Origin: Candidatus Xianfuyuplasma coldseepsis
Lineage (GTDB): Bacteria > Bacillota_I > Bacilli_A > Izemoplasmatales > Izemoplasmataceae
DNA: 64,000 bases
Assembly: GCF_014023125.1 (NCBI RefSeq)
Contig: NZ_CP048914.1
Location: 1,392,698-1,456,697 of the forward strand
Direction: 5' to 3'
The notes under the pieces: model-generated
Databases searched by the model: none
Seen by the model: the letters and a program-made list of their open reading frames with translations, nothing else
What the model was told of the DNA's origin: nothing
Position numbers and translations under genes: made by a program
In this document: positions 7,941-49,555 of the stretch, piece after piece
Layout of the letters: each line of letters begins with the position of its first letter
How positions within the stretch are numbered: the stretch's first letter is position 1

Positions 7941-8789
7941 ATGAAAAAACTATTATTACTTAGTACAATTGGATTATTTGTATTTGGACTCAGTGCCTGC
8001 ACAAATGATGATCCAGATCGTACAAATGACCCAACAGATGATGAACTAACCGAATATACCTTAACGGAACTGGCGATGTACGATGGCCAAGACGGAATGG
8101 ATGCGTATATTGCGGTGGATGGATATGTCTATGATGTCACCGATGATCCCAACTGGGAAGGTGGAAGCCATAACGGTTTTATGGCTGGACAAGATTGGAC
8201 TGAAGAAATCGGCAGTGCATCACCCCATGGAAGTAGCGTGTTAAGTGGAGTACCGAAAATCGGAATCATTGTTGAAGAAGATGATACGACTACCGAAACG
8301 ATGTACTTTACGATTACAGAACTTTCAATGTATGACGGCCAAAACGGAAATGATGCTTATATCGCATTTGAAGGAAAAGTATATGACGTCACCGATAACT
8401 CAAACTGGAGCGGTGGAAGTCATGCTGGAATTGATGCGGGTCAAGATATTACTGCTGAAATCGCAGGTTCACCACACGGCGATAGTGTTGTTGCTGGTTT
8501 AACAGAAATTGGTGAATTGGTTGTGGACAAAACCGGAGATGCTCCATATGATCCATATCTATATTTAACTCTAACCGATCTTGCCATGTATGATGGAACT
8601 GGTGATATGGATGCCTATGTTGCCGTCAGTGATGTGGTTTACGATGTAACCAACTCAGCGGCTTGGACGGATGGAACTCATAACGGCAACAGTGCCGGAT
8701 TGGATCTAACCGATGAAATATTATCTGCACCACATGGAGAAAGTGTCCTTGATGGACTTACTATTGTTGGGGAAATTGTAGCTGAATAA
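7941..8789 (+). CDS. Lipoprotein with three tandem cytochrome b5-like domains
   Basis: 282-aa predicted surface lipoprotein. ATG 7941 follows AAGGAGGT, and the protein begins with a signal ending in the lipobox LSAC (Cys20). After an Asp-rich linker come three tandem copies of about 70-75 residues, each starting YTLTELAMYDG-like and ending SPHG/APHG, matching the bacterial cytochrome b5-like heme/steroid-binding domain (Cyt-b5 family). Each copy keeps two His at equivalent places, one in GGSHNG, GGSHAG or DGTHNG and one in SPHG or APHG; these are candidate axial heme ligands (inference). It is a single gene with its own terminator. A role as an extracytoplasmic electron carrier or heme binder is plausible but unproven. 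Confidence 0.85.
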   Translation: MKKLLLLSTIGLFVFGLSACTNDDPDRTNDPTDDELTEYTLTELAMYDGQDGMDAYIAVDGYVYDVTDDPNWEGGSHNGFMAGQDWTEEIGSASPHGSSVLSGVPKIGIIVEEDDTTTETMYFTITELSMYDGQNGNDAYIAFEGKVYDVTDNSNWSGGSHAGIDAGQDITAEIAGSPHGDSVVAGLTEIGELVVDKTGDAPYDPYLYLTLTDLAMYDGTGDMDAYVAVSDVVYDVTNSAAWTDGTHNGNSAGLDLTDEILSAPHGESVLDGLTIVGEIVAE

Positions 8790-9450: not shown

Positions 9451-9478
9451 AAAAATGAGGAATTTTCCTCATTTTTTT
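9451..9478. terminator. Bidirectional terminator
   Basis: Stem AAAAATGAGGAA/TTCCTCATTTTT with A and T runs on both sides. It serves the small membrane protein on the plus strand and the NqrF-Rnf operon on the minus strand. Confidence 0.88.
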
Positions 9479-10560
9479 TAACTAAATTTATCATAGAATA
9501 TATGGGACTCATCCAAATCTTTATCAGTTAGCACGTCAATACAAGCATCAATCATTCCTGGTGAACCACACAAATAGGCTTCCTGATTGGATAAGTCATT
9601 GTAGTATTTCGCAACGACTTCAGTGATTAGTCCTTTTTCTCCATCCCATGTCTCGTCATCATCGGCGTGACTTAAGGCGGGGATGTATTCAAAGTTTGGG
9701 AACTCCTGTTCTAAAGCCTTGAACTCATCGGTCATATAGAGATCATCTTGGGTTCTTGCACCAAAGAAGTAACGAACTTTTCGGGGCATATTCTGATCCT
9801 TCAAGACTTGTAAGATGGAACGAATTGGAGCTTTTCCACTACCACCAGCAATACAGATAATATCACGTGAGGAATCTTCTTGTAAGAAGAAATCTCCATA
9901 CGGACCTGTAATAGTAATATCATCATTGTTCTCGAGTGCTTTGTGAACAAAGGTTGTTGCTTTTCCTTTGGGTACTAAGCGGATGATAAATTCGATGATG
10001 TTGTTATGTTTTGGATTTGAAGCTATTGAATACGCTCGTTCAATTTCCATTCCTGGCACACGTATCTGGGCGTATTGTCCTGGCTTAAAATCCATGGTTC
10101 TTGGTTCGATTAGTTCCAAACGAACTAGTTTTATGTCATAGGTTAAATCTTCAATCGCAGTCACTTTGGCACTATATTCTTGCGCATTTAACAGTTCGCG
10201 CATAACTTCGATTTTCATGCTACTGCGTACTTTTGTTTGGCATGCGAGACGAACATTATTTTCCTGTTCTTCAGGTGAGAGAAGTGGTGCTTCGACAGGA
10301 GACATTTCAGGTCCGCCATCAATCAGTTTAAATTTACATGCACCACATGTGGCTTTTCCACCACAAGCAGAAGGTAGAAAGATTTTTTCGTTATTTAAGG
10401 TATTGAGTAAAGTGTCTGCGGCATTGACGTGGATAACTTGTTCATCATTGATCGTAACAGTATGATCGGCATCATTACCAATCAATGTATCAATCACAAG
10501 CAACAAAACGGTAATGAGAAGAAGGACACCAATAATGATTATGGGAACAAAGAAATTCAT
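9478..10560 (-). CDS. NqrF-type NADH dehydrogenase subunit of an Rnf/Nqr-like complex
   Basis: 360 aa. Order: N-terminal membrane anchor (residues 2-25), a 2Fe-2S ferredoxin domain with CGGKATCGAC and a fourth Cys in LACQT, an FAD domain with RAYSIAS, and an NAD-binding domain with AGGSGKAPIRS, ending FYDKF. This is the domain order of NqrF, which takes electrons from NADH to FAD and 2Fe-2S at the cytoplasmic face of Na+-NQR. It is the last gene of a five-gene minus-strand operon (D-G-E-A-F), in the place where Rnf operons carry rnfB. It is somewhat shorter than usual NqrF (about 405 aa). Subunit type is confident; the electron acceptor of the whole complex is not. Confidence 0.9.
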   Translation of the reverse strand: MNFFVPIIIIGVLLLITVLLLVIDTLIGNDADHTVTINDEQVIHVNAADTLLNTLNNEKIFLPSACGGKATCGACKFKLIDGGPEMSPVEAPLLSPEEQENNVRLACQTKVRSSMKIEVMRELLNAQEYSAKVTAIEDLTYDIKLVRLELIEPRTMDFKPGQYAQIRVPGMEIERAYSIASNPKHNNIIEFIIRLVPKGKATTFVHKALENNDDITITGPYGDFFLQEDSSRDIICIAGGSGKAPIRSILQVLKDQNMPRKVRYFFGARTQDDLYMTDEFKALEQEFPNFEYIPALSHADDDETWDGEKGLITEVVAKYYNDLSNQEAYLCGSPGMIDACIDVLTDKDLDESHIFYDKFS

Positions 10561-10572
10561 AGGGTTACCTCC

Positions 10573-11154
10573 TTATACACTGGCGATACCCGTAAATCCA
10601 ATAAAGGCTAAGGCAAGGATTCCAAGAATGATAAAGGTCATTCCTTTACCCATAAGGCCTTTGGGGACATTACTTTGGGTCGCCATTTTTTCTCTTATTG
10701 CTGCGAGTAATACAATTGCAAATAGCCATCCTACGGAGGAACCTAGACTAAATGAAACGGTCTCGGCAAAGGTGTATTCCCGGGTGACAAAGAATAAACT
10801 GACAGCGAGAACGACACAGTTTACCGTAATCAGTGGTAAGTAGATTCCAAATGAGTTGTAGAGTCTTGGGATAAATTTCTCCAAGAACATTTCTAAGAAT
10901 TGTACCGTTGCCGCAATGGTGATGATGAATACCAGTAAAGATAGTTGCGTCGCATCGGCACTTTTTAGAATCATATAAATCGGATAATTGATAATCGAGG
11001 TTAATGTTACGACAAAGATGACGGCTAATCCCATACCTTTGGCGTTTTTGACATTGGTTGATATCGCTATTAAAGGACACATACCAAGGATGTAGATCAA
11101 CGCAATGTTGTGATTCAAAATGGATGCAAAAAAGATTTCAATAATATTGTTCAT
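10573..11154 (-). CDS. rnfA: RnfA/NqrE-type membrane subunit
   Basis: 193-aa protein with six predicted membrane helices. It keeps the two Cys of this family, Cys26 in GMCPL and one in LITVNCVV; with two Cys of the neighbouring RnfE/NqrD subunit they hold an intramembrane 2Fe-2S cluster in Nqr and Rnf structures. It lies 12 bases before the NqrF gene and 15 after rnfE, so it is co-transcribed. It helps carry electrons across the membrane and forms part of the ion path. RnfA and NqrE are homologous; the short RnfD and RnfG partners favour the Rnf name. Confidence 0.93.
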   Translation of the reverse strand: MNNIIEIFFASILNHNIALIYILGMCPLIAISTNVKNAKGMGLAVIFVVTLTSIINYPIYMILKSADATQLSLLVFIITIAATVQFLEMFLEKFIPRLYNSFGIYLPLITVNCVVLAVSLFFVTREYTFAETVSFSLGSSVGWLFAIVLLAAIREKMATQSNVPKGLMGKGMTFIILGILALAFIGFTGIASV

Positions 11155-11169
11155 TGTGTGTCTCCTTTC

Positions 11170-11793
11170 CTAGGTTGTCACCTCATAATTTTTGGTTAGT
11201 TCACGGATGAGCCAAATGAATAGTCCGAGAACGAAGAATCCACCTGGAGCCATCGCCATCGATACCCAGTTAACCCAGTTGTCACCGACAACTTGGAAGT
11301 TTAGAATCGTTCCAAAGGCGAGTAATTCACGAATGATAGATACGGCAATCAGAACATAAGTGTATCCAAGTCCACTAGCCAGTCCATCAACAATCGAGTA
11401 TTTAATCGGATTTTTCGAGGCGAATGCTTCACTTCGACCCATGACGATACAATTGGTGATAATCAGTCCAACGTAAGCACCGAGTTGGGATGCGATCGAA
11501 GGATAAAATGCTTCTAAAAACATTTGGACAGCTATAACGTAAGAGGAGATAATCACCATATAGGTTACCATTCGTACTTTATTTGGGATAAAGGAACGAA
11601 TCGCACTGACGGTAAGACTGGAGGCGATGATAACAAATGTAACACCCAGTCCCATGGCAATCGCATTTTCAACGCGATTGGTAACTGCAAGGGCACTACA
11701 TATTCCGAGTACAGCGATGGCAATCGGATTATCTGCAGCTAGTCCACGTTTAAAGATATTATATGATTTTGTGTATTTATATCGTTGTTTCAT
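11170..11793 (-). CDS. rnfE: RnfE/NqrD-type membrane subunit
   Basis: 207 aa. The start is ATG 11793 behind TAGGTGAT rather than the upstream in-frame GTG. It has six membrane helices and the family signatures GICSALAVTNRVENAIAMG and ITNCIVMGRSEAFAS, each holding one Cys ligand of the shared intramembrane 2Fe-2S cluster. It pairs with the RnfA/NqrE protein as an inverted-topology partner. It lies nine bases after rnfG in the same operon. Confidence 0.93.
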   Translation of the reverse strand: MKQRYKYTKSYNIFKRGLAADNPIAIAVLGICSALAVTNRVENAIAMGLGVTFVIIASSLTVSAIRSFIPNKVRMVTYMVIISSYVIAVQMFLEAFYPSIASQLGAYVGLIITNCIVMGRSEAFASKNPIKYSIVDGLASGLGYTYVLIAVSIIRELLAFGTILNFQVVGDNWVNWVSMAMAPGGFFVLGLFIWLIRELTKNYEVTT

Positions 11794-11802
11794 AGCTATC
11801 AC

Positions 11803-12381
11803 CTACTCCTGATTCGCTTGCCATACAGCAAGGTACTCGCGATAATTTTCATTTAATACTATTTCAAATAAGTCACTGGTTCTCGTAGCTCCTGTAATCG
11901 AATCGACTTGAGAATTTGTTAGAGGCTGTGTTGTTTTCACAATGCTGATTTCCATTTCTTTTTCAACAAACATATCCAAGTATTCTCGCGATCCGACGAC
12001 ACCTCCAAGCCCCGGTGTTTCTTCTTGTGCTAAAACACTAATATGGGCTATGGTTTCAAAGTCGCTTTCAAGCGTTAGGATTCCTGTGATTGGACCCCAT
12101 AAACCACTACCTTCGAAGTAAAAACTAATACGACCGGTATCGGTGTCGGTATAAAATGTATACTCGTTAATTTCTTCAATCGTAACATGTTCGGTGAAGG
12201 TTTCATTGATACTGGATGGGGAGTAAGAGATTTCAAATCCATCTAAGATGGCAGCTTCTTTTAAGGCCTCTTCGTTTTCAATGATGCGCTCTTCGGTTAT
12301 TAGGTCCATACCGAGTAATATGACCGATGTGAACACACCGAGTATCAAGATGAAGAGAATCGTTTTTACTTGTTCACTCAT
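11803..12381 (-). CDS. rnfG: RnfG/NqrC-type flavoprotein subunit with covalent FMN site
   Basis: 192 aa. One N-terminal membrane helix (about residues 7-25), then an extracytoplasmic FMN-binding domain with GLWGPITGILTLE and ETPGLGGVV. The sequence DSITGATRTS fits the ApbE flavinylation consensus Dxx(S/T)GAT, so FMN is probably ester-linked to that Thr. Its length matches RnfG rather than the longer NqrC (about 255 aa). The ATG overlaps the stop of rnfD by four bases, so translation is coupled. No apbE gene is in the window, but one must exist if the site is used. Confidence 0.93.
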   Translation of the reverse strand: MSEQVKTILFILILGVFTSVILLGMDLITEERIIENEEALKEAAILDGFEISYSPSSINETFTEHVTIEEINEYTFYTDTDTGRISFYFEGSGLWGPITGILTLESDFETIAHISVLAQEETPGLGGVVGSREYLDMFVEKEMEISIVKTTQPLTNSQVDSITGATRTSDLFEIVLNENYREYLAVWQANQE

Positions 12382-13274
12382 ACGGATTTCTCCTTTGTGA
12401 AGAGACTATCCAACATCGGTGAAATCGCACTCATGATGATGACGGCAAAGATGACACCTTCAGGAAACGCCGCAAACATCCGGATGATGATGGTGATGAT
12501 TGCTAAACCAAGCCCGTATAATAGTTTCGCCCATGTGTTTTTTGGAGCGACAGTCTCATCGGTGATAAGAAAGACTGAGGCGAATAGTACGGTTCCAGTA
12601 ATGAGTGAATAGAAGGGATCAAATGGACCAGCAAAGACATTCATAATCACTTGTACAACTACTATGGAAATTAAAAAACTGAGGGTAATCTTATAGTCGA
12701 TGGTTCGTAATAACATTAACAAAACACCGAGAACCATAATCGCTAAGCGAACGGTTTCCCCGATTGCACCCGCACTAAAACCAAGTAGAAGTTCATTCAC
12801 GGACAGGGGAAATGGGTTGAAGGGTAAACTGCTTACTGCAGTATAGGTTTGAATTTGTCCCGTTGAGGGATGAAGCCACATCGTGTTAAGTTCTGCGGGA
12901 AAGGTGATGATCAAAAACAAAACACCTACCGCAGCGGGAGGGAAGATATAGGCACCTTCGCCACCAAATAAACTCTTTCCAAAGAATGTACCAAAAACAC
13001 TCCCAACAACAGCCATCCATAGAGGAATGGTTGGAGGTAATAGTAAAACATAAATGAGTGGAGTGATGATGATGCTTAACGTGAGGGGTAATTTGCGTGT
13101 TTTAAAGAATCCAAATTCAACGAGAATGGATGATACAATCGATACCAAGGCAATCAGCCATACCGTACCACCAAAGATGATACTTGCGTATCCTAAGACG
13201 ATTAGTAAAGCCAATAACATAAATACTTGTTGCCGAAGACGAGGTTGCCTTCGAAGTTCCGAAATCAAGTTCAT
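12378..13274 (-). CDS. rnfD: RnfD/NqrB-type membrane subunit lacking the usual FMN-attachment motif
   Basis: 298-aa polytopic protein. Start ATG 13274 follows AGGAGGT; an upstream in-frame ATG at 13292 has no ribosome site. Family signatures are present: FGGEGAYIFPPAAVG, FSAGAIGETVRLA, LITDETVAP and AAFPEGVIFAVIIM. The canonical SGATPL motif, whose Thr carries covalent FMN in NqrB and RnfD, should lie before the GAIGET stretch; there the sequence reads AVSSLPFNPFP, with Leu at the Thr position in my alignment. It is the first gene of the operon, with a promoter upstream. Upstream of it I see no rnfC, rnfB or nqrA. Confidence 0.88.
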   Translation of the reverse strand: MNLISELRRQPRLRQQVFMLLALLIVLGYASIIFGGTVWLIALVSIVSSILVEFGFFKTRKLPLTLSIIITPLIYVLLLPPTIPLWMAVVGSVFGTFFGKSLFGGEGAYIFPPAAVGVLFLIITFPAELNTMWLHPSTGQIQTYTAVSSLPFNPFPLSVNELLLGFSAGAIGETVRLAIMVLGVLLMLLRTIDYKITLSFLISIVVVQVIMNVFAGPFDPFYSLITGTVLFASVFLITDETVAPKNTWAKLLYGLGLAIITIIIRMFAAFPEGVIFAVIIMSAISPMLDSLFTKEKSV

Positions 13275-13309
13275 TGGGGACCTCCTGATCATTATAGTTA
13301 TTCATAAAT

Positions 13310-13338
13310 ATTATAAACTGAAAAGCAAAAAATGTTAA
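13310..13338 (-). promoter_or_regulatory. Promoter of the rnfD-G-E-A-nqrF operon
   Basis: On the minus strand: TTAACA (13338-13333), 17-base spacer, TATAAT (13315-13310), about 36 bases before the rnfD ATG. It lies downstream of the ridA terminator, so the operon has its own promoter. Confidence 0.78.
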
Positions 13339-46111: not shown

Positions 46112-46585
46112 ATGAGTATCCAACAAATCATACAATCCTACCCAGCAAAAAGTGAGTATTTACTGGAGATGTTGATTGCTGTCGACCAACAAAAGAAACA
46201 TCATTATATCAGTGCCGAAGAAATTAATGAAATTGCCTCCTACGTGAAGGTGAAAGAGAGTCATGTTTGTAGCGTGATGAGTTTTTATACGTTGCTTTCA
46301 ACTCAACCACGTGGCGAATACGTAATTCAAGTCTGTAAAGACGTACCGTGCTATATCAATGATGATTTCAATGTTGTATTAACCATTGAAGAAGAACTAG
46401 GCATTGTTCTAGGCCAAACAACAAACTGTGGACGGTTCTCTTTGGAACAAACCGCATGTATTGGTTGTTGTGATGAGGCACCAGCAATGCGAATTAATCA
46501 TGAAATATATACCAACCTAACCAAAGAAAAAGTACTTGATATTATTCATACATTGCGAGGTGATGCAAATGGTAGAACGACGTGA
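46112..46585 (+). CDS. hydC: NuoE/HydC-type [2Fe-2S] subunit of NADH-linked hydrogenase
   Basis: 157-aa thioredoxin-fold 2Fe-2S protein. The four cluster Cys are visible: two in VCKDVPCYI and two in ACIGCCDEAP. It supports electron transfer between the FMN subunit and the hydrogenase subunit. First gene of a three-gene operon; the next gene starts inside its end (17-base overlap). ATG 46112 follows AAGGAGGACG. Confidence 0.93.
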   Translation: MSIQQIIQSYPAKSEYLLEMLIAVDQQKKHHYISAEEINEIASYVKVKESHVCSVMSFYTLLSTQPRGEYVIQVCKDVPCYINDDFNVVLTIEEELGIVLGQTTNCGRFSLEQTACIGCCDEAPAMRINHEIYTNLTKEKVLDIIHTLRGDANGRTT

Positions 46586-47834
46586 ACTGACAAAACGATT
46601 TGATCAAATAAATCCAGAACAGATTCAGGACTTTTTAGCTCTTGATGGCTTTTCAATGTTAGAAAAGGCATTGAAAATGACTCCCTCAGAAGTTCGCGAT
46701 GAAATTCGTGCATCAAGACTCACCGGTCGTGGGGGTGCTGGATTTTTAACGAGCATTAAGATGGATAGTTTTGCGGCGGAAACAGGAAAGAAATATATTG
46801 TCTGCAACGCTGATGAAGGAGAACCAGGTAATTTCAAAGATCGATATTTGATGGAGAAGGATCCCTTTCAAGTGATTGAAGGAATGTGCATTAGTGCCTA
46901 TGCGACCGGAGCTCAAGAAGGATTTATCTATATTCGTGGTGAATATCAAACGTCCATAAAACGAATCCAGAATGCGATTGATGAATCACGTAAACATCAT
47001 TATCTTGGGACACATATATTACAATCCGCATTTTCATTTGATATCACAATTCGTCAAGGTGCGGGAGCATATGTATGTGGTGAAGAGTTTGCCTTGATTG
47101 AGTCACTAGAAGGAAAACCAGGAAGAACTCGTGTAAAACCACCATATCCTGCTCAAGAAGGATACTTCAGTTACCCAACATTAATCAATAATGTCGAAAC
47201 ATTTTGTAACTTACCATTTATTGTACGAATTGGGGGCGACGCGTATCGTCAAATCGGAAGTGATTTTGCATCCGGTACGAAACTGATCAGTTTGTCGGGG
47301 AATGTGAAACATAAAGGACTGTATGAAGTTCCTTATGGAACGACCATTCGTGATGTTATATTTAAACTTGGTGGGGGAACACCGAATCATCGAGCGATTA
47401 AAATGGTACAATTAGGGGGTGCCTGCGGGGCAATTATCCCAGATGAGTTATTGGATATGGATATTGACAATGAACGATTCCAGATCTTTGATTCTAAAAT
47501 GGGTGCCGGAGCCATTATTGTTATGGACGACAGTCATGATTTGTTTGACATCATTCATCGAAATATGGAGTTCTTTGCCCATGAATCATGTGGAAAATGC
47601 ACACCATGCCGCGAAGGTCATATTCAGCTTGTGAAGTTGATTGAAAAATTCATTATCAATGAAGCGTCGCAAAAAGATTATGATACACTTCGGTCGTTAG
47701 CACAAGTAATTCATGACACAACACTTTGCGGACTTGGGCAAACATCACCGACTTGTATATTGTCAACCATGGAATTCTTCCCCGAGGAATACAATCGTCG
47801 AATTGCCTATAGAAAACGAGGTGGTCAAGCATGA
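46569..47834 (+). CDS. hydB: NuoF/HydB-type NADH-oxidising subunit, short form
   Basis: 421 aa. Start ATG 46569 follows GAGGTGA at 46557-46563. NAD/FMN core: GRGGAGFLTSIK, CNADEGEPGNFKDR, GAGAYVCGEEFALIESLEGKPG, and the 4Fe-4S ligands in ESCGKCTPCREG plus a Cys in TTLCGLG. It lacks both the N-terminal 2Fe-2S domain and the C-terminal 2x[4Fe-4S] extension of electron-bifurcating HydB (about 600 aa). It resembles the NADH-only type seen in Syntrophomonas. Oxidises or reduces NAD(H). Overlaps hydA by four bases. Confidence 0.93.
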   Translation: MVERRELTKRFDQINPEQIQDFLALDGFSMLEKALKMTPSEVRDEIRASRLTGRGGAGFLTSIKMDSFAAETGKKYIVCNADEGEPGNFKDRYLMEKDPFQVIEGMCISAYATGAQEGFIYIRGEYQTSIKRIQNAIDESRKHHYLGTHILQSAFSFDITIRQGAGAYVCGEEFALIESLEGKPGRTRVKPPYPAQEGYFSYPTLINNVETFCNLPFIVRIGGDAYRQIGSDFASGTKLISLSGNVKHKGLYEVPYGTTIRDVIFKLGGGTPNHRAIKMVQLGGACGAIIPDELLDMDIDNERFQIFDSKMGAGAIIVMDDSHDLFDIIHRNMEFFAHESCGKCTPCREGHIQLVKLIEKFIINEASQKDYDTLRSLAQVIHDTTLCGLGQTSPTCILSTMEFFPEEYNRRIAYRKRGGQA

Positions 47835-49555
47835 TTCATGCAAAAATAAATCATATTGATGTTGTCGTAGAGGAAGGTACAACAATTTTAGAAGCAGCTA
47901 AGAAATACAACATAAACATTCCTACATTATGTCATTATCCCGATTTACACATCAATAGCGATTGCCGAATATGTGTTGTTGAGATTGATGGGTATCGTGG
48001 GCTAAAGACCTCTTGCTCAACACCGATTCGTGATGGGATGATGATAAAAACAAATTCACCACGCGTATTGAATTCGAGAAAAACGGTTACGGAACTTATA
48101 TTAGCTAATCATGATGTGAATTGTACGTCTTGTACCAGAAATATGAACTGTGAATTACAACAACTATCCAAAAATCTCGGGATTGATACGAGTCGTTTTG
48201 ATAATGTCTTGGAATACAAAGATATTGATGATCAGAATCCGAGTATTGTCCGTAATCCCAATCGGTGTATTAAGTGTGGTCGTTGTGTCGATGTCTGTCA
48301 ACATGTGCAAGGGATGCATGTCTTAGAACGAATGGGTCGAGGACATGATATGGATATCTCTCCGGCATTTGGGTTACCGCTAAATGATCAATCTTGTTCA
48401 TTCTGTGGTCAATGTGCAAATGTTTGTCCAGTAGGAGCGATCATCGAGAAGGATAATACCAATCTTGTGTGGGAAAAATTGCATGATCCAACGAAACACG
48501 TGATGGTTCAAATTGCTCCTGCAGTTCGTGTATCAATTGGTGAAGAAATCGGTCTTGAATCCGGACTAATTAGTAATGGAAAACTGGTTGCAGCAATGAA
48601 ACATTTAGGATTTAATCATGTTTATGATACAAATTTCACTGCTGATTTAACGATCATGGAAGAGGGAACGGAACTAATATCACGAATCAATAACGGTGGA
48701 ACTCTACCACTGATGACGTCGTGTTGTCCAGGTTGGATCAATATGGCTGAGCAAGAATTTCCTGAAATTCTACCCCATATTAGTAGTTGTAAGTCGCCTC
48801 AACAGATGTTTGGTACGTTGGCAAAATCGTACTATGCGACCAAAACCAACATGGATCCTGAAGATATCTATGTCGTATCGGTAATGCCGTGCACGGCTAA
48901 AAAATATGAGGCTACGAGAGAAGAATTTTCTGTGGATGGGAAACATCCTGACGTCGATGTTGTTATCACCACAAGAGAACTTGGGAAAATGTTCCGTCAA
49001 ATGGGAATTGATGTCAATCGCTTACCAGAAGTTGAATTCGATTCTCCATTTGGAATAACAACGGGAGCTGCCGCACTCTTTGGAGCAAGTGGTGGTGTCA
49101 CAGAAGCAGCACTTCGTACGGTCTATGAAATTGTCAATGAACGACCGCTTGAAGACATTGTTTTCAATAGTGTTCGAGGGATGGATGGTCTGAAAGAAGC
49201 GGAAGTGAACTTAGCCGGAACCACGGTAAAGGTTGCTGTATCGCATTCACTCAGCAATGCACGGAAGTTGATTGAGGAAGTCATCGCTGGAAAATCACCC
49301 TATACCTTTATTGAAATTATGGCTTGTCCAGGTGGATGCATCGGTGGTGGCGGCCAACCCTATGGAACGACCAATGAAGTTCGCGAACACCGACTTGCAT
49401 CAACATATATTGTCGATGGGAATATGATTTATCGAAAGAGTCATCAAAATCCAGATATTCACAAGTTGTATGAGGAATATCTGCAACAACCCAACTCTCA
49501 TATTGCTCATAAATTATTACATACCGACTATCAGTACCGTAAAAAAAGAACGTGA
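47831..49555 (+). CDS. hydA: [FeFe]-hydrogenase catalytic subunit HydA
   Basis: 574-aa M3-type enzyme. N-terminal 2Fe-2S domain (CHYPD, DCRICVVEI, SC), a His-ligated 4Fe-4S site (HDVNCTSCTRNMNC), two 4Fe-4S ferredoxin sites (CIKCGRCVDVC and CSFCGQCANVCP), then the H-cluster domain with L1 TSCCPGW, L2 MPCTAKKYE and L3 ACPGGCIGGGGQP. All H-cluster Cys are present. Makes H2 from NADH-derived electrons, or the reverse. Maturases HydE, HydF and HydG are not in the window. Confidence 0.97.
   Translation: MIHAKINHIDVVVEEGTTILEAAKKYNINIPTLCHYPDLHINSDCRICVVEIDGYRGLKTSCSTPIRDGMMIKTNSPRVLNSRKTVTELILANHDVNCTSCTRNMNCELQQLSKNLGIDTSRFDNVLEYKDIDDQNPSIVRNPNRCIKCGRCVDVCQHVQGMHVLERMGRGHDMDISPAFGLPLNDQSCSFCGQCANVCPVGAIIEKDNTNLVWEKLHDPTKHVMVQIAPAVRVSIGEEIGLESGLISNGKLVAAMKHLGFNHVYDTNFTADLTIMEEGTELISRINNGGTLPLMTSCCPGWINMAEQEFPEILPHISSCKSPQQMFGTLAKSYYATKTNMDPEDIYVVSVMPCTAKKYEATREEFSVDGKHPDVDVVITTRELGKMFRQMGIDVNRLPEVEFDSPFGITTGAAALFGASGGVTEAALRTVYEIVNERPLEDIVFNSVRGMDGLKEAEVNLAGTTVKVAVSHSLSNARKLIEEVIAGKSPYTFIEIMACPGGCIGGGGQPYGTTNEVREHRLASTYIVDGNMIYRKSHQNPDIHKLYEEYLQQPNSHIAHKLLHTDYQYRKKRT

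Follow-up and report, generated by a model that had tools for sequence, protein, structure and literature searches.

NQR is described as a reductase of quinone by reduced nicotinamide adenine dinucleotide (an NADH:quinone reductase), and gene sets of this type that lack NqrA (NqrBCDEF) have already been recorded (PMC4148951, PMC5924567, PMC6256511). In these papers, Pseudothermotoga thermarum, Pseudothermotoga lettingae and Clostridium ultunense carry NqrBCDEF with NqrA missing and an acceptor that is stated to be unknown (PMC4148951, PMC5924567), while Candidatus Izimaplasma ZiA1 is listed with NqrBCDEF and Acholeplasma palmae with NQR (PMC6256511). One-way transfer of electrons from NAD(P)H to extracytoplasmic flavin mononucleotide (FMN) by partial NQR/RNF machinery has also been proposed (Meheust et al. 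2021, PMC8238504), the clusters concerned encoding one fused NqrB/RnfD-NqrF protein and occurring mainly in Actinobacteria and the candidate phyla radiation. Here we analyse a five-gene operon of related type, in the order D-G-E-A-F, which lies in a 64,000-nucleotide stretch (the window) of the genome of Candidatus Xianfuyuplasma coldseepsis zrk13. This wall-less deep-sea bacterium is a cultured cold-seep Izemoplasma for which an RNF complex, complex I and cytochrome bd have been described and a quinone pool assumed (PMC8397711), and its genome (G000) is a single contig of 1,958,905 bp. Judged by its sequence, the operon is an NqrA-less NQR (NqrBCDEF) and not a new hybrid, and the encoded complex probably moves NADH electrons outwards, where RnfG would hand them to an extracytoplasmic acceptor rather than to quinone.

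The operon consists of five co-directional open reading frames on the minus strand of the window, between positions 9478 and 13292, with junctions of −4, 0, 15 and 12 bp (Table 1). The original prediction, made from the letters of the window, had recognized RnfD-, RnfG-, RnfE-, RnfA- and NqrF-type subunits on this strand, in agreement with the open reading frames and the Pfam matches. It placed the end of the operon correctly at 9478, but its start at 13274 is an internal ATG six codons into a reading frame that reaches 13292. The NADH-fed input that it proposed is also supported: the NqrF-type protein has an N-terminal helix, the 2Fe-2S cysteines Cys66, Cys72, Cys75 and Cys107, a flavin adenine dinucleotide (FAD) motif RAYS at residue 175 and an NAD(P) domain. 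The iron–sulfur ligands of the membrane pair are retained in RnfE (Cys35 and Cys118) and RnfA (Cys26 and Cys113), and RnfG has a single N-terminal helix and the flavinylation motif DSITGATRTS at residue 160, so that the proposed path to an extracytoplasmic FMN is intact as far as its conserved ligands are concerned. No RnfB, RnfC or NqrA is encoded within or adjoining the operon.

The view that such a set is neither Rnf nor NQR is not supported, since its affinity is with the NQR lineage. A tree built on the concatenated E and A subunits (35 rows, some of them on long branches) is divided by a branch with 100/100 support, with the window operon on the NQR side and three further zrk13 operons (operons 1–3, Table 1) on the RNF side. 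Canonical NQR is placed together with the five-gene systems of spirochaetes and Ilyobacter (99/94), and the systems of Bacillota and Mollicutes branch beside them. Monophyly of all five-gene systems was not rejected by the approximately unbiased test (p=0.195), and for this reason we do not claim that NQR arose from within the five-gene systems. The NCBIfam models rank nqrE above rnfA, nqrD above rnfE and nqrC above rnfG for the window subunits, but rnfD above nqrB. None of the subunits reaches its NQR equivalog cut-off, the scores and cut-offs being 257 and 295 bits for nqrF, 196 and 248 for nqrE, 213 and 245 for nqrD, 72 and 144 for nqrC, and 115 and 350 for nqrB. The E/A core and subunit G thus appear more NQR-like than RNF-like, and Rnf-like traits seem confined to subunit D and to the lengths of D and G.

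The operon shares with Na+-NQR the NqrF input, the iron–sulfur pair of NqrD/E, the NqrC FMN and the gene order B-C-D-E-F, but differs in having no NqrA, D and G subunits shorter than NqrB and NqrC, no quinone-site helices, an NqrF of 360 instead of about 405 residues, a degenerate RnfD FMN site and a host without UbiA. With RNF (RnfABCDGE) it shares a homologous D-G-E-A core of similar subunit sizes; however, it is without RnfB and RnfC, its core lies across the 100/100 branch, and the RNF-type operons of the host are separate. Unlike the clusters with a fused NqrB/RnfD-NqrF protein, it has five separate open reading frames that include the iron–sulfur pair E/A. The NqrBCDEF sets of Pseudothermotoga, C. 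ultunense and ZiA1 have the same five subunits, a comparison made by description only, and the passages in question draw no tie to a missing quinone site, a lack of UbiA or operons of cytochrome bd. To these accounts the present analysis adds the family-wide gene order, the assignment to the NQR lineage and the missing quinone-site region, together with the contrast between the RnfG and RnfD sites, the absence of UbiA and a connection with cytochrome bd.

Conservation was followed in 61 related genomes, that of the window included, with the NqrF-type protein as query. Close homologues (at least 54% identity) were found in 27 of the 61, again counting the window's own, and all 26 fetched relative loci have the D-G-E-A-F order, as a survey suggested with the original prediction was meant to establish, with RnfB, RnfC and NqrA not adjoining. 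When named genomes were scanned, at least 561 related stretches came up; of the best 80 loci, on which the counts are based, all five genes stand in the D-G-E-A-F order in 73, the other 7 being interrupted by contig ends. These loci include Acholeplasma laidlawii, A. oculi, A. equifetale, Haploplasma modicum, Paracholeplasma and Peloplasma, as well as strains zrk2 and MO-XQ, Petrocella and spirochaetes (Spirochaetota), and the large plasmid of Ilyobacter polytropus has the five genes as well. The system was not found on viral contigs. Given this recurrent order, the operon is a real gene set far beyond chance.

The cofactor ligands, counted over the named loci and the window, are not conserved equally. 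The four NqrF cysteines are kept in 79 of 79 proteins, the two RnfE cysteines in 76 of 76, the two RnfA cysteines in 78 of 78 and the flavinylated threonine of RnfG in 74 of 74. At the FMN position of RnfD a threonine occurs in 51 of 69, and the canonical [A/G/S]T in only 38. In the window RnfD the motif reads GQIQTYTAV, to be compared with D..TTATPL or D..SGATAL, so that the threonine is aligned and the aspartate and alanine of the motif are gone. The counts imply that the outward path is strongly constrained and the return path through RnfD less so, although loss of RnfD flavinylation is not a defining feature of the family, 38 of 69 members having kept the motif. In Acholeplasma and Haploplasma the RnfG of the operon is enlarged to 656–847 residues, with four Pfam FMN domains in A. 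laidlawii, three in A. oculi and one in Haploplasma, as would be expected if RnfG hands electrons onward on the outside.

The second line of evidence concerns quinone. The quinone site of NQR lies on NqrB instead of NqrA and is formed by N-terminal helices that RnfD lacks (2025 RNF/NQR review, PMC12174285). The window RnfD (304 residues) aligns to Vibrio cholerae NqrB only from residue 122, so that the N-terminal quinone-site extension is missing, and the D subunits of the five-gene loci have about 300–340 residues versus 390–412 in canonical NqrB. The UbiA family holds the prenyltransferases of quinone synthesis. No member was found in zrk13 (control 14/14), and none scored over the cut-off in the 19 more distant members of the class that carry the operon. 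Peloplasma aerotolerans, in which respiratory quinones were not detected (PMC11122141), also carries the five-gene operon (locus L087).

Neither NqrA nor a quinone site of NqrB type is thus available, and with no RnfC in the operon and no UbiA in the genome, the electrons most likely leave from RnfG. We propose that NADH is oxidized in the cytoplasm by NqrF, where electrons would pass through FAD and then the 2Fe-2S cluster to the intramembrane 2Fe-2S cluster held by RnfE and RnfA, and from there to the FMN that RnfG carries covalently on the outer side of the membrane. The steps up to RnfG are inferred from homology together with the conserved ligands. RnfG could then reduce an extracytoplasmic acceptor, which might be an oxidant from the environment or a further protein with flavin or haem. 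Pumping of Na+ or H+, which had been suggested for the complex, is plausible from the kinship of its subunits, and is less likely where the RnfD FMN site is lost.

Several observations weigh against the export of electrons from RnfG. No acceptor is consistently encoded beside the operon, a cytochrome b5-like lipoprotein being near it in only 3 of 26 relatives. The canonical RnfD flavinylation motif persists in more than half of the family, and the return path through RnfD may still be working in those members. RnfC, present elsewhere in most of the genomes, could be shared with the operon. Finally, a UbiA homologue was found in 11 of the 27 operon-bearing genomes versus 3 of the 34 without the operon, so that those relatives may use a quinone-like acceptor, and quinone could also be scavenged.

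A first alternative is a full ion-pumping loop, in which an RnfC encoded in a different operon attaches to RnfD, or the RnfD FMN and riboflavin carry electrons back to a cytoplasmic partner. Besides the retained RnfD motif, such a loop would accord with the spread of RnfC, of which zrk13 has two genes (in operons 1 and 3) and which occurs in 23 of 27 operon-bearing relatives and in all 19 distant ones (56 of the 61 genomes overall). It would also accord with an RnfC-like gene in front of D-G-E-A-F that was seen only in Petrocella and HGW-Firmicutes-2 (L120:440-1582, L121:103-1245). The encoded protein is without its N-terminal part, and these two loci may specify an RnfC-containing, NqrF-fed complex. 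However, transfer from NADH to NAD+ via RnfC would be futile, RnfC is no commoner with the operon than without it (33 of 34), and two genomes (G007, 96% complete, and G016, 93% complete) have the five-gene operon and no RnfC, which shows that RnfC from another operon is not generally needed. We consider a loop of this kind unlikely.

Equally improbable is a genuine NADH:quinone reductase that does not need NqrA, with quinone bound directly on RnfD, some relatives synthesizing it and others scavenging it. The core on the NQR branch, the location of the site on NqrB and the higher frequency of UbiA among operon-bearing relatives all speak for it, but the N-terminal helices of the site are missing, UbiA is lacking in zrk13 and below the cut-off in the distant operon-bearing genomes, and no quinone was found in Peloplasma. 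An RSX-like reductase for redox poise or oxidative stress, which would keep an extracytoplasmic or membrane target reduced, has a precedent in RSX (PMC12174285) and a hint of oxygen defence in the desulfoferrodoxin gene near the window operon and downstream in the three spirochaete loci, but is quite unlikely because that gene is divergent in the window and not adjacent in most loci.

The host carries four loci with Rnf/Nqr-type cores, of which the window operon is the fourth. A genome-wide search for the missing subunits had been proposed with the original prediction, and the absence of NqrA holds, with no NQRA_N match in G000 and only partial, weak matches in relatives among the 61 genomes searched. 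The absence of RnfB and RnfC does not extend to the genome as a whole, since RnfC and a short RnfB are encoded elsewhere. This goes half way towards a refutation named with the original prediction, but these operons lie on the RNF branch and hence have a mismatched phylogeny. The short RnfB proteins at L020:4320-4787 and L021:3820-4152 have about 100 residues with a helix and one iron–sulfur domain, and lack the ferredoxin-like C-terminal domain that ordinary RnfB has. A search for ApbE, proposed at the same time, gave one gene. This only ApbE of the genome adjoins operon 3, as do rhodanese-domain lipoproteins (L021:3820-14985, C1 about 328.8–340.0 kb), and the RnfG of operon 3 has 633 residues with several FMN domains; the region is possibly an extracellular electron-transfer locus.

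Operon 2 joins an Rnf core to cytochrome bd, in a cydA-cydB-D-G-E-A-short RnfB order that is conserved in four relatives (G001, G002, G013 and G029). In zrk13 its iron–sulfur cysteines are kept and it has its own short RnfB, and the RnfD FMN threonine is lost. Its CydA (389 residues) is without the Q-loop, which completes the quinol site in Escherichia coli (PMC13189123), residues 5–257 and 264–370 aligning to residues 7–259 and 384–492 of E. coli bd-II. UbiA is absent from all six cydA-bearing genomes. The Q-loop-less CydA operon suggests a quinone-free reduction of oxygen. Cytochrome bd is not an obligatory or general partner of the five-gene operon, which only two of the six cydA genomes have (G000 and G002).

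Four other loci (L130, L131, L141 and L150) have, immediately upstream of D-G-E-A-F, a cytochrome bd/Rnf-type module that includes E and A subunits of its own. Its cydB is visible in L130, L131 and L150 and its cydA in L130 and L150, and L141 ends at a contig edge. All four iron–sulfur cysteines are lost from the upstream E and A, whereas the D-G-E-A-F that follows keeps them. L150 has RnfD fused to an FMN domain, and the matching open reading frames of L130 and L131 have 814 and 947 residues. On the simplest reading, the upstream module would have stopped taking electrons from the cytoplasm on its own and would receive them on the outside from the NqrF complex, which hints at NADH:O2 respiration without quinone in these four relatives. 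More tentatively, the modules might form a quinone-free chain, in which NqrF-DGEA exports NADH electrons to the outward FMN, and in some lineages a Q-loop-less cytochrome bd, encoded with its own RnfD/G/E/A, reduces oxygen from that flavin, the five-gene form being a step between RNF and true NQR; on present evidence we regard this larger scheme as possible and short of probable.

A widespread NQR relative with neither NqrA nor the NqrB quinone site, in cells where no gene of quinone synthesis is detected, would mean that the core machine of NQR can serve acceptors other than quinone, and would open the published remarks on the unknown acceptor of NqrBCDEF to experiment in strains that can be cultured (zrk13, Acholeplasma). 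In A. laidlawii a membrane NADH oxidase has long been known, an enzyme described as an iron–sulfur flavoprotein, and the five-gene operon would be a candidate for it. The analysis also bears on the origin of NQR from RNF, because the systems with NqrF in Bacillota, Fusobacteriota and Spirochaetota branch here no less deeply than canonical NQR. Such depth is not readily reconciled with the Bacteroidota origin of NQR given in a 2025 review (PMC12174285).

Table 1. Subunit genes of the five-gene operon, flanking features and the other Rnf/Nqr-type operons of zrk13. Positions are those of the window, except where the contig (C1) is given.
Feature	Position	Strand	Details
RnfD/NqrB-type membrane subunit	12378..13292	−	304 aa; Pfam NQR2_RnfD_RnfE 206.9 bits
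RnfG/NqrC-type extracytoplasmic FMN subunit	11803..12381	−	192 aa; Pfam FMN_bind 51 bits
RnfE/NqrD-type membrane subunit	11170..11802	−	210 aa; Pfam Rnf-Nqr 194.6 bits
RnfA/NqrE-type membrane subunit	10573..11154	−	193 aa; Pfam Rnf-Nqr 174.8 bits
NqrF-type NADH input subunit	9478..10560	−	360 aa; Pfam Fer2 + FAD_binding_6 + NAD_binding_1
Candidate sigma-70-like promoter, TTAACA-17-TATAAT	13310..13338	−	11/12 match; directly upstream of first gene
Putative extracellular lipoprotein, three cytochrome b5-like haem domains	7941..8789	+	convergent neighbour
Operon 1	C1 about 118.8–123.5 kb		RnfC-D-G-E-A, then small Cys-rich ORF (open reading frame), then short RnfB
Operon 2	C1 about 127.0–132.5 kb (L020:12500-17951)		cydA-cydB-D-G-E-A-short RnfB
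Operon 3	C1 about 328.8–336.9 kb		HydA-like Fe-S protein, RnfC, D, RnfG, E, A, short RnfB

The promoter candidate is suggestive only, as comparable sites arise by chance at about an equal rate in the region. Between 7941 and 9450 the cytochrome b5-like lipoprotein is followed by a 187-residue membrane protein of no known family, and both are found again close to the operon in some of the Izemoplasma relatives. With its low frequency beside the operon, the lipoprotein is rejected as a conserved acceptor and is a weak candidate acceptor. The desulfoferrodoxin gene is the next but one in the window and, not being conserved beside the operon, is not an obligatory partner. Further along the window, a three-gene operon at 46112–49555 encodes a HydABC-like [FeFe] hydrogenase, and a Complex1_51K match near 46700 that might have been taken for RnfC belongs to the HydB-type subunit of this hydrogenase.

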